Origin: Candidatus Woesearchaeota archaeon
Lineage (GTDB): Archaea; Nanobdellota; Nanobdellia; Woesearchaeales; JAGVXP01
Assembly (NCBI GenBank): GCA_018303725.1
Contig: JAGVXP010000052.1
Coordinates: 1-35,226 of the forward strand
DNA length: 35,226 nucleotides
Direction: 5' to 3'
Shown piece by piece: positions 2,017 through 30,602 of the stretch. Made by a program: the position numbers and the translations under genes. Numbering within the stretch: position 1 is the stretch's first letter; each line of letters starts with the position of its first letter. Under the pieces are notes generated by a model. The model worked only from the letters and a program-made list of their open reading frames with translations. It searched no databases and was not told the origin of the DNA.

Positions 2017-2910
2017 TTAAAATATTTTATTAGGTTTTATTATTGATTCTAATGCGGAGGAAGGGATTTGAACCCTTGCACCCACTAAGGGACAAGGCTT
2101 CTGATTAATATCCTCAACCTTGCGCATTTGACCAGGCTCTGCCACCTCCGCATATTCTTTTTTATTGTAAAACAAAGCAGGATTAATCTCCTTGTTTAAT
2201 ATAATTCTTCTTTGTTTTATAGTTGTATGCGGAGGACAAAAACCAAATCGTTTCCAAACTTCAAATTTAGTAATGTGTTTAGAATTATTAGATCCGATGA
2301 TATTAAACCATCTTTCCACATCTTTATTACTTTCTATTCTCAAAATATGCAATGTTTTCCAATTCTTTTCTTCGTGCAATAAAGGATTCTTAATAACACC
2401 TTTAATTTCAACTTTATTAAGTAACGTGTGAATATCACAAATCAATTTTTTCGATGAAGATCCAAAACTAATTTTTATTAGTCTGTGTAAACTATTTTGG
2501 ACATTATAACTCTTTTGACAAAAAATACTCCCATCAGTATCAAAAAAACCTCTTAAAAACCCCTTCATATAATTTCTGTCTTGTAAAATCCATTCTGGAA
2601 TAATTAATTCATTTTTTATACCTACCGGAATGCCAAGAGAAACGAGGTAGTTACAAATTTTGCCGCTTTCTGTGCTAATACCATAATAAGGTTTTTTACC
2701 GTTATAAATTGTTGTAGGAATTGCACCTATAACCCTATCAAACAAGGGTTTAACATAATCATCATAATGTTCTCTATCCTCTGTTATACTGCCCCTCATT
2801 TGGAATCTTAGTTTCCCTTTATTTTTACCAGAGTGTCTTTTTGTTAGACTTCCATCTCCAAAACACAAACCTACAATTTCTGCTGTTTTTTCGTTTTTTA
2901 TTACTTCCAT
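2017..2910 (-). CDS. LAGLIDADG homing endonuclease; the ORF reads through the tRNA-Leu gene
   Basis: Two LAGLIDADG-like motifs, IVGLCFGDGSL and LRGFFDTDGSI. Start taken at ATG 2910 after GGAGG; the ORF track opens at 3000. Confidence 0.8.
   Translation of the reverse strand: MEVIKNEKTAEIVGLCFGDGSLTKRHSGKNKGKLRFQMRGSITEDREHYDDYVKPLFDRVIGAIPTTIYNGKKPYYGISTESGKICNYLVSLGIPVGIKNELIIPEWILQDRNYMKGFLRGFFDTDGSIFCQKSYNVQNSLHRLIKISFGSSSKKLICDIHTLLNKVEIKGVIKNPLLHEEKNWKTLHILRIESNKDVERWFNIIGSNNSKHITKFEVWKRFGFCPPHTTIKQRRIILNKEINPALFYNKKEYAEVAEPGQMRKVEDINQKPCPLVGARVQIPSSALESIIKPNKIF
2053..2151 (-). tRNA. tRNA-Leu(GAG) with a 13-nt BHB-type intron (2099..2111) at position 37/38
   Basis: Acceptor GCGGAGG/CCTCCGC, variable arm CCC-TTAGT-GGG, T-arm AAGGG-TTCAAAT-CCCTT, anticodon stem CAAGG/CCTTG; central helix TTGA:TCAG with bulges GG^A and AA^G. 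Confidence 0.9.
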
Positions 2911-13443: not shown

Positions 13444-16110
13444 ATGGAAGAAGATAACCAAAAAAATCAACCCGAAATTAGCCAACAAACTAGTGAGAAG
13501 ATAGTTCCAAGGCTGATAGAAGATGAGATGAAGCAGAGCTATGTAGATTATGCTATGTCTGTTATTGTTGGAAGGGCCTTGCCTGATGCCAGGGACGGTT
13601 TAAAGCCAGTCCACAGAAGGATATTGTTCGCTATGCATGACATGGGAATGTTCCATAATAAGCCCTTTAAGAAGTCTGCTAGGATTGTAGGAGAAGTCCT
13701 TGGTAAATATCATCCGCATGGTGACATGGCTGTCTATGATGCTCTAGTAAGGATGGCTCAGAATTTTTCGCTGCGTTATCCATTGATTAATGGTCAAGGC
13801 AATTGGGGTTCTGTTGATGGGGATTCTGCTGCTGCCATGAGATATACTGAAGCAAGGCTTAACAGATTGGCAGAAGAAATGCTGCAGGATATTGATAAAA
13901 AAACAGTTAAGTTTGTTCCTAATTTTGACGAGTCTTTAGAAGAGCCTTCTTTGCTGCCCTCCAAAGTGCCAAACCTATTGATCAATGGCTCTTCCGGTAT
14001 AGCAGTCGGCATGGCAACTAATATCCCTCCGCATAATATGGGAGAGGTTGTAGACGGCACTATAGCCCAGATCAATAACCCTGATTTAACAATAAAGGAA
14101 TTGATGCAATACATAAACGGGCCTGATTTTCCAACAGGCGCTCTAATCTGCGGCAAGAATGGCATAATAAACGCTTACAGCACAGGAAAGGGCCACATTA
14201 CAGTAAGAGCTAAAACAAGCATAGAAGAAGTCAAAGACCACAAAAACATAATAATCAGCGAAATTCCATACATGGTGAATAAATCTGAGTTAGTAACCGA
14301 AATTGCTAATTTAGTAAGAGATAAAAAAGTTTATGGAATAGCAGATATAAGAGATGAGTCTGACAGGGAAGGCATGCGTATAGTGATAGAGCTAAGAAAA
14401 GATGCAAACTACAAATTTATTCTAAACCATTTGTACAAACATACCCGTGCTCAAAATACCTTTGGGGTTATAATGCTCGCTCTAGTTGATAATGAGCCAA
14501 AGGTTTTGAATTTAAAAGAATTAATAAAATGTTATATTGACCATAGGAGGGATGTTGTCAGAAAAAGAACAGAGTTTGACTTGCAAAGGGCCCAGCAAAG
14601 AGCTCATATTTTGGAAGGCATAATAATTGCTTTAGACAACATAGATTTGGCAATTAAATTAATAAAGGAAAGCAAATCAGCTGAAGAAGCAAAAACAGCT
14701 TTAATCAACAACTTCAAATTAACCGATGAGCAGGCTTTGGCAACCTTAGATTTGAAACTGCAAAAATTAGCCTCATTGGAGCAGGAAAAGATAAGGCAGG
14801 AGCATTCTGATTTGTTGAAACTAATTGAAGAGTTAAAATCCATACTGGCTTCTGAACAAAAAATCTTGGAAATAATAAAAAAGGAACTTTTAGAGCTAAA
14901 AGAAAGATATGGCAATGCAAGAAAAAGCGAAATAACATCCATTGAAACAACAGAATTGGCAATGGAAGATCTGGTTAAGCCTGGCGATATGGTGATAACA
15001 ATTTCTCATTCAGGCTATATAAAAAGGCTGCCAGTTGAAACCTATAAGCAACAAAGAAGGGGCGGAAAAGGGGTTATAGCAGCAGGAACAAAAGAAGAAG
15101 ATTTCATAGAGGATTTATTCATTGCAAACACACACTCTTACATTTTATTCTTTACAAACAAAGGCAGAGTTTATTGGCTGAAGGTTTTCTATATCCCAGA
15201 AGCCGGAAGGCAGGCCAGAGGCAAGGCAATCATTAATTTATTAAATCTGCAAAATGATGAAAAAGTGACAGCATTTGTTCCTGTTGACAAATTTGATGAG
15301 CAGCATTACCTGATTATGGCCACTAAAAAAGGCACTGTTAAAAAAACAGACCTGATGGCTTACTCAAACCCTAGAAAAACAGGGATTATAGCAATAACTT
15401 TGGATCCGGATGATGAGTTGATAGGTGTCATGCTCACAGACGGCAACCAGCAGATTATCTTGGCAACTAAAAATGGAATGGCATCGAGGTTTGAGGAAAG
15501 CAAGGTAAGGCCAACCGGAAGAAGCGCAATGGGTGTGAAAGGCATTACCTTAAGGGAAGATGATGTGATGGGCATTGTTGTAGCTTCTGATGAAAAAACA
15601 TTGCTTACATTAACTGAAAACGGGTATGGAAAAAGGACAAGTGTTTCTGATTATAGGCTGACAAACAGGGGAGGCATAGGAGTTAGAAACATCATCTGCT
15701 CCGAAAGAAACGGAAAAGCCATAGCCATAAAATCAACAACGGATGAAGATGATGTGATGTTTATTTCCCAAAAAGGCAACATAATAAGGATTCCAGCCAA
15801 AGGCGTATCTGTCATTGGAAGAAACACGCAGGGTGTAAGACTGATAAGGCTTGAAGAAGGCGACAAAGCTGTTAGTATAGCTAAGATCGTAAAGGAAGAG
15901 GGAAATGAGGATGAGGAGGAACCAACTGAAAAGCCAGAAGAAGAGCTAGAAAATGAGCATCAAGAAGAAAGGCTGGAAGAGATTGAGGACAAAACAGAAG
16001 AAGAGCCAAAAGAAATTGAAAACAAAGAAGAACCCACACCAGAGATTGAAGATAAAACAGCACAAGAGTTAATTGATGAATCAGAGAATTTAAATAATGA
16101 TAAAGAATAG
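13444..16110 (+). CDS. gyrA: DNA gyrase subunit A
   Basis: [35 protein letters not shown]...[21 protein letters not shown]; beta-pinwheel repeats; acidic tail. Confidence 0.97.
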
Positions 16111-17332: not shown

Positions 17333-17726
17333 GCAGGGTTGATAGTTAGCTAACGGTTCCCTTAAGCAATTAAGGTTTGAACTGAGGAAAGTCCACCCAC
17401 TGAAGATGTTAAATCTTGCTTAAACGCTTGATTTGGCATTGGAGCAACAACTCCACTAAAGGAGACGCAGTAATGTGTGGCAACGCCACAGAAACGAGAC
17501 CGCTCTTTAAGAGGATGAAGATTGTGAAGCATCTGGTGACAGGTGTTAGTTAACCAACAGACGTTTTAAAGAGAAAGGGTGAAACGGGCAGACCTTGTTT
17601 GTGCAAGTCCAGTGACGTTAAATGTTCGAAGAACATTTATGGCGTCACCAAGACGCTTAGTTGAATGCTAACACAGTTTAAAGCCAAAAGCTTAGACTGA
17701 CAGAAGGTGGCTTATTTCAGCCCTGC
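17333..17726 (+). ncRNA. rnpB: RNase P RNA
   Basis: P1 GCAGGG...CCCTGC; CR-I GAACTGAGGAAAGTCC; internal ACAGAAACGAGACC; CR-V-type GACTGACAGAAGGTGGCTTA near the 3' end. Confidence 0.92.
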
Positions 17727-20720: not shown

Positions 20721-20765
20721 TTTAGAATAAACTTTATAAAGGGGCCTCGCTTATTTATTTTTTAT

Positions 20766-20858
20766 GGTGGCCGTGGTGTAGTCTGGCTAGCATAAAAGAC
20801 TGTGGATCTTTTGGCCCGAGAGGCATTTGGCCCGGGAGTTCAAATCTCGGCGGCCACC
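20766..20858 (+). tRNA. tRNA-His(GTG) with an 18-nt BHB intron (20821..20838) in the T-arm, position 53/54
   Basis: G-1:C73, acceptor GTGGCCG/CGGCCAC, anticodon loop CTGTGGA, T-stem CCGAG/CTCGG only after intron removal; BHB: CCCG:CGGG flanked by bulges AG^A and AG^T, outer TTGG:TCAA, inner GGC:GCC. Confidence 0.9.
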
Positions 20859-20908
20859 CCTTTTCTAAAAGCGCAATATTTATATAGAATTAAAAGCTAG
20901 TTGGATAT

Positions 20909-24424: not shown

Positions 24425-24588
24425 GCGAGGATGCCGGAGTGGCCAAACGGGATAGTTTTTGGCAGCAAGGTGCTAAAAATCCAAACTCAAGTTATTGAGT
24501 GATGAGGTCTCCTCAAGAGATCAATGATATGCTCTATGGGCCATCTATTGGCTTAGTGCCTACGGGGGTTCAAGTCCTCCTCCTCGCA
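24425..24588 (+). tRNA. tRNA-Leu(CAA) with two BHB introns: 24456..24484 (position 30/31, 29 nt) and 24492..24542 (position 37/38, 51 nt)
   Basis: Acceptor GCGAGGA/TCCTCGC; T-arm GGGGG-TTCAAGT-CCTCC; variable arm GGC-TTAGT-GCC; removing both introns gives a perfect anticodon arm ATAGA-CTCAAGA-TCTAT and an 84-nt mature tRNA. Confidence 0.87.
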
Positions 24589-29002: not shown

Positions 29003-30460
29003 ATGGACAAGGATGCCAGTATTTTTAAGGGTTTGTTGGTGGTTTTCTTTTTGTTTGTTGTCATACTATCTTTCATACAGTTTAGTGTTAAGGATATAAT
29101 AGGTTTTGATGGCTACTTGCATATAAAGGCAGCTGATCTGATAAAAGAAAATGGATTTTTTAAGGAGTTCCCTTGGACTGTAAACTCAATTTTAAATACA
29201 AAATATGCGGATATACAGCTGTTATTCAGACTTGCTTTAATCCCTTTTACCTTTTTTGGGTTAATCAATGGAGCAAAGATAGCAGCCATTGTATTTGGTG
29301 CTTCGTGCTTCACTGTTTTTTATTGGTATTTAAAGAAAAATGGTATAACTTTCCCATTAATATGGACTTTTATCTATCTTTTAGCTTCAGTTGAATTGAT
29401 GTACAGGTTCCTCTTGCCAAGGGCAATGCCTTTGTCTGTTTTATTCCTAATTTTAACATTTTATTTTGTTGAGGAAAAAAAGCTCAAATCGCTTTTTGCC
29501 CTGTCCTTTTTGTATGTCTGGCTTTATAGCGCCTTTTTGTTTTCATTTATGGTTGTTTTATTATCTTTTGTTTTAGATTGGGCAATGCATAAGAAAATAG
29601 ACCATAGTCTATTGGTATATTCAATTGGCGGAATAATGGCTGGTTTGATAATCAACCCCTATTTCCCTAATAATCTCACTCTTTTATATTTACAGTTGTT
29701 TAAAGTTAATCTTTTAGGCAATCTTTTTAATGTAGAATGGCAACCATGGAGTTTTGGGCAATTGTTGTTTCATAATATTGTACCGTTTATATGCTTTTTT
29801 GCAGCCATATTTTTTAATGCAAAAAACAAGAAAATAAGTAAAAAGAATTTGTTATTATTCCTTATCTCCTTAATCTTCCTGATCTTTACAATAAAATCCA
29901 AAAGGATGCAGGAATATTTTGTCCCTTTTGCTGTTTTATTTTTAGCATTTTCAATTAATGATTTTATTATTAAGTTAAAGGAAAAAAAAGCGGATTATTT
30001 CAAATATTTGAAATATTCATTTATTTTTATAATAATAGTTTTAGCACCTATTAATTATATAAATTTGGAAAAAACAATAGATGAGGGCAATTTTTTATAT
30101 AAATATGAAAAAGGAGCATTATGGTTAAAAAACAATGCTCCTAAAGGTTCTTTAGTTTTTATTAATGCATATGCCTTTAATTATCTGTTTTTTTATAATT
30201 CTGATGTTAAGTATACGCATGGAATAGATTTAACTTATTCTTATTTATATGACGCTGATAAATTTGAGAGGTATATGGATTTATTGCAAGGCAAAGATTT
30301 TGATTATAATGTTATCAAGACAGATTATAACCCAGATTATGTTTTTATTGGCAAGATTAAGCCAGATAAACAAATAGCCGAATTTATTTTGAAGTTTAAG
30401 AAGGATTTTGAATTAGAGTATGAGGATGATTTTACTGCTATATTTAAGGTTAAAAAATAA
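29003..30460 (+). CDS. Polytopic membrane protein, GT-C glycosyltransferase-like
   Basis: N-terminal TM, then GFDGYLHIKAADLIKENG loop, many TM helices, soluble C-terminal domain. Confidence 0.6.
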   Translation: MDKDASIFKGLLVVFFLFVVILSFIQFSVKDIIGFDGYLHIKAADLIKENGFFKEFPWTVNSILNTKYADIQLLFRLALIPFTFFGLINGAKIAAIVFGASCFTVFYWYLKKNGITFPLIWTFIYLLASVELMYRFLLPRAMPLSVLFLILTFYFVEEKKLKSLFALSFLYVWLYSAFLFSFMVVLLSFVLDWAMHKKIDHSLLVYSIGGIMAGLIINPYFPNNLTLLYLQLFKVNLLGNLFNVEWQPWSFGQLLFHNIVPFICFFAAIFFNAKNKKISKKNLLLFLISLIFLIFTIKSKRMQEYFVPFAVLFLAFSINDFIIKLKEKKADYFKYLKYSFIFIIIVLAPINYINLEKTIDEGNFLYKYEKGALWLKNNAPKGSLVFINAYAFNYLFFYNSDVKYTHGIDLTYSYLYDADKFERYMDLLQGKDFDYNVIKTDYNPDYVFIGKIKPDKQIAEFILKFKKDFELEYEDDFTAIFKVKK

Positions 30461-30461
30461 A

Positions 30462-30602
30462 TACGGTAGCCGGGACTTTCGACAGTGAATATACAACGTA
30501 CATTCGGCTTGGGACTTCTTGCGAAATCTGTGGGCTTTGGACTGTTTCGAACCCGGACTCTGAGCTTGGGAAGCTCATATCCTGCCATTAGATAACTACC
30601 GT
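30462..30602 (-). tRNA. tRNA-Gly(CCC) with a 70-nt BHB intron (30476..30545) in the T-loop, position 59/60
   Basis: Acceptor ACGGTAG/CTACCGT, anticodon arm TGAGC-TTCCCAA-GCTCA; T-stem CCGGG/CCCGG; removing the intron gives T-loop TTCGAAT; central helix TTCG:CGAA with bulges AA^A and AG^T. Confidence 0.9.

Follow-up and report, generated by a model that had tools for sequence, protein, structure and literature searches.

Does a tRNA-His gene whose T-stem fails to pair when read contiguously still encode a working tRNA, and if an intron interrupts it, which enzyme could remove that intron? The question is raised by the locus at 20766-20858 (+) of the window, i.e. the whole stretch of 35,226 nt that we analysed, which is contig C11 of the source assembly (1.30 Mb in 62 contigs, 81% complete). 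Our analysis suggests that the locus is very probably a functional, single-copy tRNA-His(GTG) gene with an 18-nt bulge-helix-bulge (BHB) intron between positions 53 and 54, which would be cut by an alpha-type splicing endonuclease and joined by the ligase RtcB. Transcription, cleavage, ligation and the alpha4 form of the enzyme are what we infer in this reading.

The tRNA-His(GTG) gene and its splice site

The Rfam tRNA model (RF00005) matched 20767-20858 at 40.7 bits, handling the extra bases as an insertion, and ARAGORN also called tRNA-His(gtg) on the unspliced locus, but with a long variable arm and two tolerated mismatches in the T-stem. The two programs agree with the identity proposed in an earlier sequence-only reading, and the tRNA-His hallmark G-1:C73 is present, with 20766 as G-1. 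That reading had also held that the T-stem is unpaired in the contiguous gene and is restored by excising 20821-20838, and this was borne out: removal of the 18 nt gives a perfect tRNA with a TTCAAAT loop and a 4-nt variable loop, which ARAGORN draws as a standard tRNA with 5/5 T-stem pairs. Every possible excision of 8 nt or more was scored for the cloverleaf and the BHB that it would give. The best solution of this unbiased enumeration was the 18 nt at 53/54, the same boundaries as proposed before, with the tRNA score rising from 17.2 unspliced to 25.7 spliced. The upstream element around TTTATAAA is found at a similar distance from many other tRNA genes of the source genome. The features are collected in Table 1.

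Table 1. Coordinates in the window of the tRNA-His locus and of further intron-bearing tRNA genes
Feature	Position	Strand	Basis
TATA-box-like promoter element (around TTTATAAA)	20731-20741	+	about 26-33 nt upstream of G-1
tRNA-His 5' exon: G-1, acceptor 5' strand, D-arm, anticodon arm (GTG), variable loop TGGC, T-stem 5' strand CCGAG to position 53	20766-20820	+	sequence, Rfam, ARAGORN, excision enumeration
BHB motif TTGG-CCCG-AG^A-GGC-atttg-GCC-CGGG-AG^T-TCAA	20811-20843	+	sequence and excision enumeration; helices covary with G302 and G142
18-nt BHB intron AGGCATTTGGCCCGGGAG at 53/54	20821-20838	+	best excision; rare under permutation
tRNA-His 3' exon: T-loop TTCAAAT, T-stem CTCGG, acceptor 3' strand, C73	20839-20858	+	sequence, ARAGORN, excision enumeration
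T-run (CCTTTT) directly after C73, likely terminator	20859-20864	+	sequence
tRNA-Leu(GAG), 13-nt intron at 37/38	2053-2151	-	Rfam, BHB finder
Probable tRNA-Leu(CAA), introns at 30/31 (29 nt) and 37/38 (51 nt), missed by Rfam and ARAGORN	24425-24588	+	BHB finder, between ORFs; weakest score of the set (23.9)
tRNA-Gly(CCC), 70-nt intron at 59/60, missed by Rfam and ARAGORN	30462-30602	-	BHB finder, 0 decoy matches, intergenic gap

The junctions form a complete strict BHB, in which two 3-nt bulges on opposite strands flank a 4-bp central helix. The outer (TTGG:TCAA, 4/4), central (CCCG:CGGG, 4/4) and inner (GGC:GCC, 3/3) helices are those named in the sequence-only reading, as are the bulges, and the outer helix is supplied by the exons, namely by tRNA positions 43-46 (UUGG) with 55-58 (UCAA). 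When the 18 intron bases were permuted, the central and inner pairing arose in 405 of 200,000 trials (0.2%), and in 80 of 200,000 if only Watson-Crick pairs were counted, as observed here; random 18-mers of genome-like composition gave it in 35 of 200,000. The cut would separate T-stem base 53 from T-loop base 54, a non-canonical position, as had been claimed, and one already published for archaeal tRNA introns (PMC4090602). A scan of the source genome with RF00005 gave 21 tRNA genes, among which this locus is the one tRNA-His, and the covariance model and BLAST with the precursor found no second tRNA-His, contiguous or otherwise, in the 81%-complete assembly. Judged from its bases, the only tRNA-His found in the source genome carries a predicted splice site that is a strict and well-formed BHB. 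The same contig encodes an archaeal RNase P RNA (17334-17725, +, 128.7 bits) and an 888-aa protein resembling DNA gyrase subunit A (13444-16110, +), here in an archaeon.

Introns in related tRNA genes and across the order

The tRNA-His gene is contiguous in many relatives, e.g. G006, and these genes align to the spliced form including the junction of CGAG with TTCAAAT. When 359 genomes of the order were scanned by pattern, a 37/38 case and one further gene with an insertion between the anticodon arm and the T-loop came up. The latter is in G302, whose tRNA-His has a 32-nt intron at exactly 53/54 with a complete BHB. In the same genus, the tRNA-His of G142 has a 31-nt intron at 53/54, with a weak outer helix (2/4), plus another at 37/38; G105 and G037 have 37/38 introns only and the gene of G300 is contiguous. 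Counted by pattern, 53/54 is occupied in tRNA-His in at least 2 of the 359 genomes of the order and at least 1 of the 380 in a sample of the phylum, with strict patterns having missed G142 (GATTGTGG). A pattern scan of a named genome collection gave three matches: the G302 record JAHJQO010000020.1, a G112 record with a 37/38 intron, and a chance match to a contiguous tRNA-His of Micrarchaeota.

The central helices of the three 53/54 introns (source genome, G302 and G142) are CCCG:CGGG, TCCG:CGGA and TCTG:CAGG, and the inner helices GGC:GCC, CGT:ACG and AGG:CCT. The BHB is kept by compensatory changes across these genes of differing intron sequence, although in three genes only. Position 53/54 has thus either been occupied repeatedly or been retained in two lineages while the intron sequences diverged completely. 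Elsewhere, in G004 and G038, tRNA-His is interrupted at 59/60 instead of 53/54, and inspection by eye found a similar T-loop insertion in G352. Since intron sites and intron presence vary in this way among relatives, the tRNA-His gene undergoes rapid intron turnover. The T-loop insertions of G004 and G352, which belong to two families, share similar stretches (ATTGSCGCYCG and TTCGAACGC), and a common or mobile origin of these two insertions is possible.

Interrupted T-arms are common in this group. We used a BHB-aware finder that requires the acceptor stem, the arms and a BHB-defined excision and allows up to two introns; it returned no matches in decoys consisting of the reversed genome and three triplet-shuffled genomes. 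In the source genome, where the census covered about 920 kb plus the Rfam loci, 12 introns were at 37/38, 6 at 59/60, 2 at 21/22, and one each at 53/54 and 30/31. In the complete, one-contig relative G010, Rfam reports 14 tRNAs and ARAGORN 15 with anticodon-loop introns allowed. The finder solved 21 there, with introns at 59/60 in 11, at 37/38 in 8, and one each at 53/54, 30/31 and in the D-loop; Arg(TCT) at 59/60 and Tyr(GTA) at 53/54 were added by eye, and ARAGORN's Pro(agg) was rejected, being better read as Leu(TAG). T-arm introns are found in at least 7 tRNAs of the source genome and 12 of G010, mostly at 59/60. Several of these genes were overlooked by both Rfam and ARAGORN; the low Rfam count in G010 is largely because many T-arms are interrupted, and therefore automated annotation and estimates of completeness will be wrong for this group where they depend on uninterrupted tRNAs.

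Most introns of the source genome, including that of tRNA-His, are strict BHBs. Two D-arm introns at 21/22, in Gln(TTG) and Glu(TTC), are relaxed, with central helix 4/4, inner 3/3 and outer 1/4. In the 59/60 introns the outer helix is the T-stem and the central one is provided by T-loop bases 54-57, a geometry that matches 37/38, where the anticodon stem is the outer helix and bases 32-35 are central. The T-stem can serve as outer helix like the anticodon stem, and the 59/60 sites are therefore explained by geometry.

Several other loci deserve mention. On contig C62 (locus L016, about 640-1625) Val(TAC), Gly(GCC), Ile(TAT) and Glu(TTC) form a cluster in which all four are interrupted, three of them at 59/60. 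Two loci of the source genome lie beyond a two-intron finder: an intron-bearing tRNA at L018 1501-1637, possibly with a CAT anticodon and two introns, and an Arg(TCT) with an anticodon-stem intron at L020 1501-1600. The tRNA-Gln(TTG) at L015 1390-1600 (contig C23, about 29912-30122, -) seemed to have a 111-nt intron at 59/60, which we rejected as a repeat of the tRNA 3' end. Its last 16-17 bases recur about 110 bp downstream, an arrangement that resembles the attachment site of an integrated element. In the window, a 327-aa LAGLIDADG_3 ORF (PF14528; 2017-3000, -) overlaps with its 3' end the tRNA-Leu(GAG) gene, and it is possibly a homing endonuclease beside a tRNA gene.

The probable splicing enzyme and alternative readings of the locus

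The sequence-only reading had expected a heterodimeric or epsilon-type endonuclease of broad specificity. We found instead a single alpha-type gene with neither the crenarchaeal nor the ARMAN loop. A PF01974 search of the source genome gave one endonuclease gene, a 186-aa ORF (L022 1474-2034, -) that has both domains. Against the crenarchaeal chain 2cv8, a 10-residue insert is absent near residues 45-46, the expected place of the crenarchaeal loop, and this single-unit ORF is not the ARMAN-type epsilon enzyme, a fused three-unit protein of about 390 aa with its own loop (ASL). In this respect 38 homologues of the order agree, and they keep the FRVY, DHAxW and STKK motifs. PF01974 matched in 138 of 147 genomes of the order, nearly always once; among the rare second matches are fragments at contig ends and a handful of genes that look duplicated, and the alpha-type enzymes are mostly about 175-210 aa. 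The closest solved chains are the N. equitans alpha subunit (3iey_A, 1.2e-36), the M. kandleri enzyme (5x89_A) and the M. jannaschii alpha4 enzyme (1a79, 6e-31). RtcB is encoded elsewhere in the source genome. By gene content, the enzyme is most likely an alpha4 homotetramer.

In the mechanism that we propose, variable-region bases 43-46 of the precursor would pair with T-loop bases 55-58, and bases 48-51 (CCCG) with the 3' part of the intron (CGGG), which on the sequence gives a strict h-B-H-B-h' substrate. The sole alpha-type endonuclease would cut after the second bulge base on each side (AG^A and AG^T), RtcB would join the exons, and the T-arm would refold into a normal tRNA-His with G-1. 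An enzyme that is blind to position and strict on motif would accept both 59/60 and 37/38 as well. We count as evidence the anatomy of the gene, its being the only tRNA-His found, the covarying introns of G302 and G142, the TATA box and T-run, the presence of the endonuclease and RtcB, and the census.

According to reviews, alpha4 and alpha'2 enzymes cut canonical BHBs only, and non-canonical introns are tied to enzymes with special loops (PMC4033280, PMC6379350, PMC12397907). Most introns described here do not conflict with a narrow alpha4, because the motif keeps its strict form and is unusual in location only, but the 21/22 introns of Gln and Glu do conflict with the enzyme if it is a narrow alpha4. 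Their relaxed form suggests some breadth of specificity and so favours an alternative that accepts the intron but assigns its cleavage to a heterotetrameric or epsilon enzyme of broad specificity, the second gene of which the assembly lacks. The closest solved structure also counts for it and against alpha4, being the Nanoarchaeum alpha subunit, which works with a beta subunit in an (alpha-beta)2 enzyme; and a beta-subunit gene, or a second tRNA-His, could lie in the missing 19% of the genome. However, profile and protein searches give one endonuclease gene in almost every genome of the order, and the protein search found no second copy in nine genomes, including the one-contig G010 and G119. 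No beta subunit was found in the 81%-complete source genome, and the complete relatives agree. The same query reaches the N. equitans beta subunit in PDB at 4e-16, and therefore a comparable beta gene should have been seen. We consider this alternative unlikely.

The locus might also be a decayed copy, broken by an imperfect tandem duplication (TTTGGCCCGAGAG / TTTGGCCCGGGAG, offset 16), with another tRNA-His doing the work in this incomplete genome. The repeat is real: the preceding exon and the 3' part of the intron share TTTGGCCCGRGAG (12/13), and none of 5,000 random introns forced into this BHB had a self-match above 11, in a test framed after the repeat was noticed. But deleting exactly one 16-nt unit fails to restore the T-stem, while deleting the BHB-defined 18 nt does; the gene also keeps intact acceptor, anticodon and T arms together with a promoter and a terminator, and the searches gave no other tRNA-His. 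Decay is thus very improbable. The intron may instead have originated from such a short imperfect duplication, which we offer as a lead only; the introns of G302 and G142 have no obvious counterpart of the offset-16 repeat.

ARAGORN's drawing would make the gene an uninterrupted tRNA-His whose variable arm is long and class II-like, with a GGCC:GGCC stem in that arm. We give this model hardly any credence: it leaves two T-stem mismatches, variable loops are short in the contiguous tRNA-His genes of relatives, and two relatives have inserts of different length at the same point, with BHBs. An assembly artefact was rejected in view of the exact Watson-Crick BHB and the introns of relatives.

Comparison with known splicing systems

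Both 53/54 and 59/60 are in a published list of non-canonical archaeal tRNA intron sites (PMC4090602), and T-arm introns have been reported in Caldiarchaeum (PMC3293823). The 53/54 position is hence not new, while the host group differs from the known cases. A literature search that covered few subscription journals, and is thus weak evidence of absence, found no report of T-arm introns in this order. We tentatively suggest that the order may have gathered T-arm introns (59/60 and 53/54) and some relaxed D-arm introns with a loop-less alpha-type endonuclease only, and that some of them, e.g. that of tRNA-His, may stem from short local tandem duplications. If so, broad intron diversity would not depend on a beta subunit, CSL or ASL, contrary to the current model of co-evolution. 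The tRNA-His intron itself lies at a hard-to-find place in an essential single-copy tRNA gene. Whether non-canonical introns co-evolved with endonucleases of broad specificity can be tested in this group, as most of its non-canonical introns are strict BHBs that only reuse another stem as the outer helix.

Compared with canonical 37/38 archaeal introns, the tRNA-His intron shares the strict h-B-H-B-h' form, the 4-bp central helix and the 3-nt bulges, but its outer helix comes from the variable region and the T-loop, not from the anticodon stem, and the mature T-arm is unable to form before splicing. The non-canonical BHB introns of Thermoproteales, other Crenarchaeota, Caldiarchaeum and N. equitans (PMC4090602, PMC3293823) are alike in being small, in including 53/54 and 59/60 among their listed sites and in occurring several to a tRNA. 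In contrast, the host here is an order of small-genome Nanoarchaeota-like (DPANN) archaea, the introns stand alongside an alpha-only endonuclease without the crenarchaeal loop, and in the complete relative introns occur at 59/60 no less often than at 37/38. The ultra-small ARMAN-1 and ARMAN-2 also have tRNA introns at many positions, with an epsilon2 enzyme (PMC12397907, PMC6379350), whereas the order studied here has neither the three-unit fused enzyme nor the ARMAN-specific loop. The M. jannaschii alpha4 enzyme (PDB 1a79) is likewise encoded by a single gene of about 180 aa with both domains, the catalytic motifs and no CSL or ASL. The enzyme described here is nevertheless nearer in sequence to the N. 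equitans alpha subunit (3iey_A), and its genomes are rich in the non-canonical introns that reviews associate with CSL and ASL enzymes.
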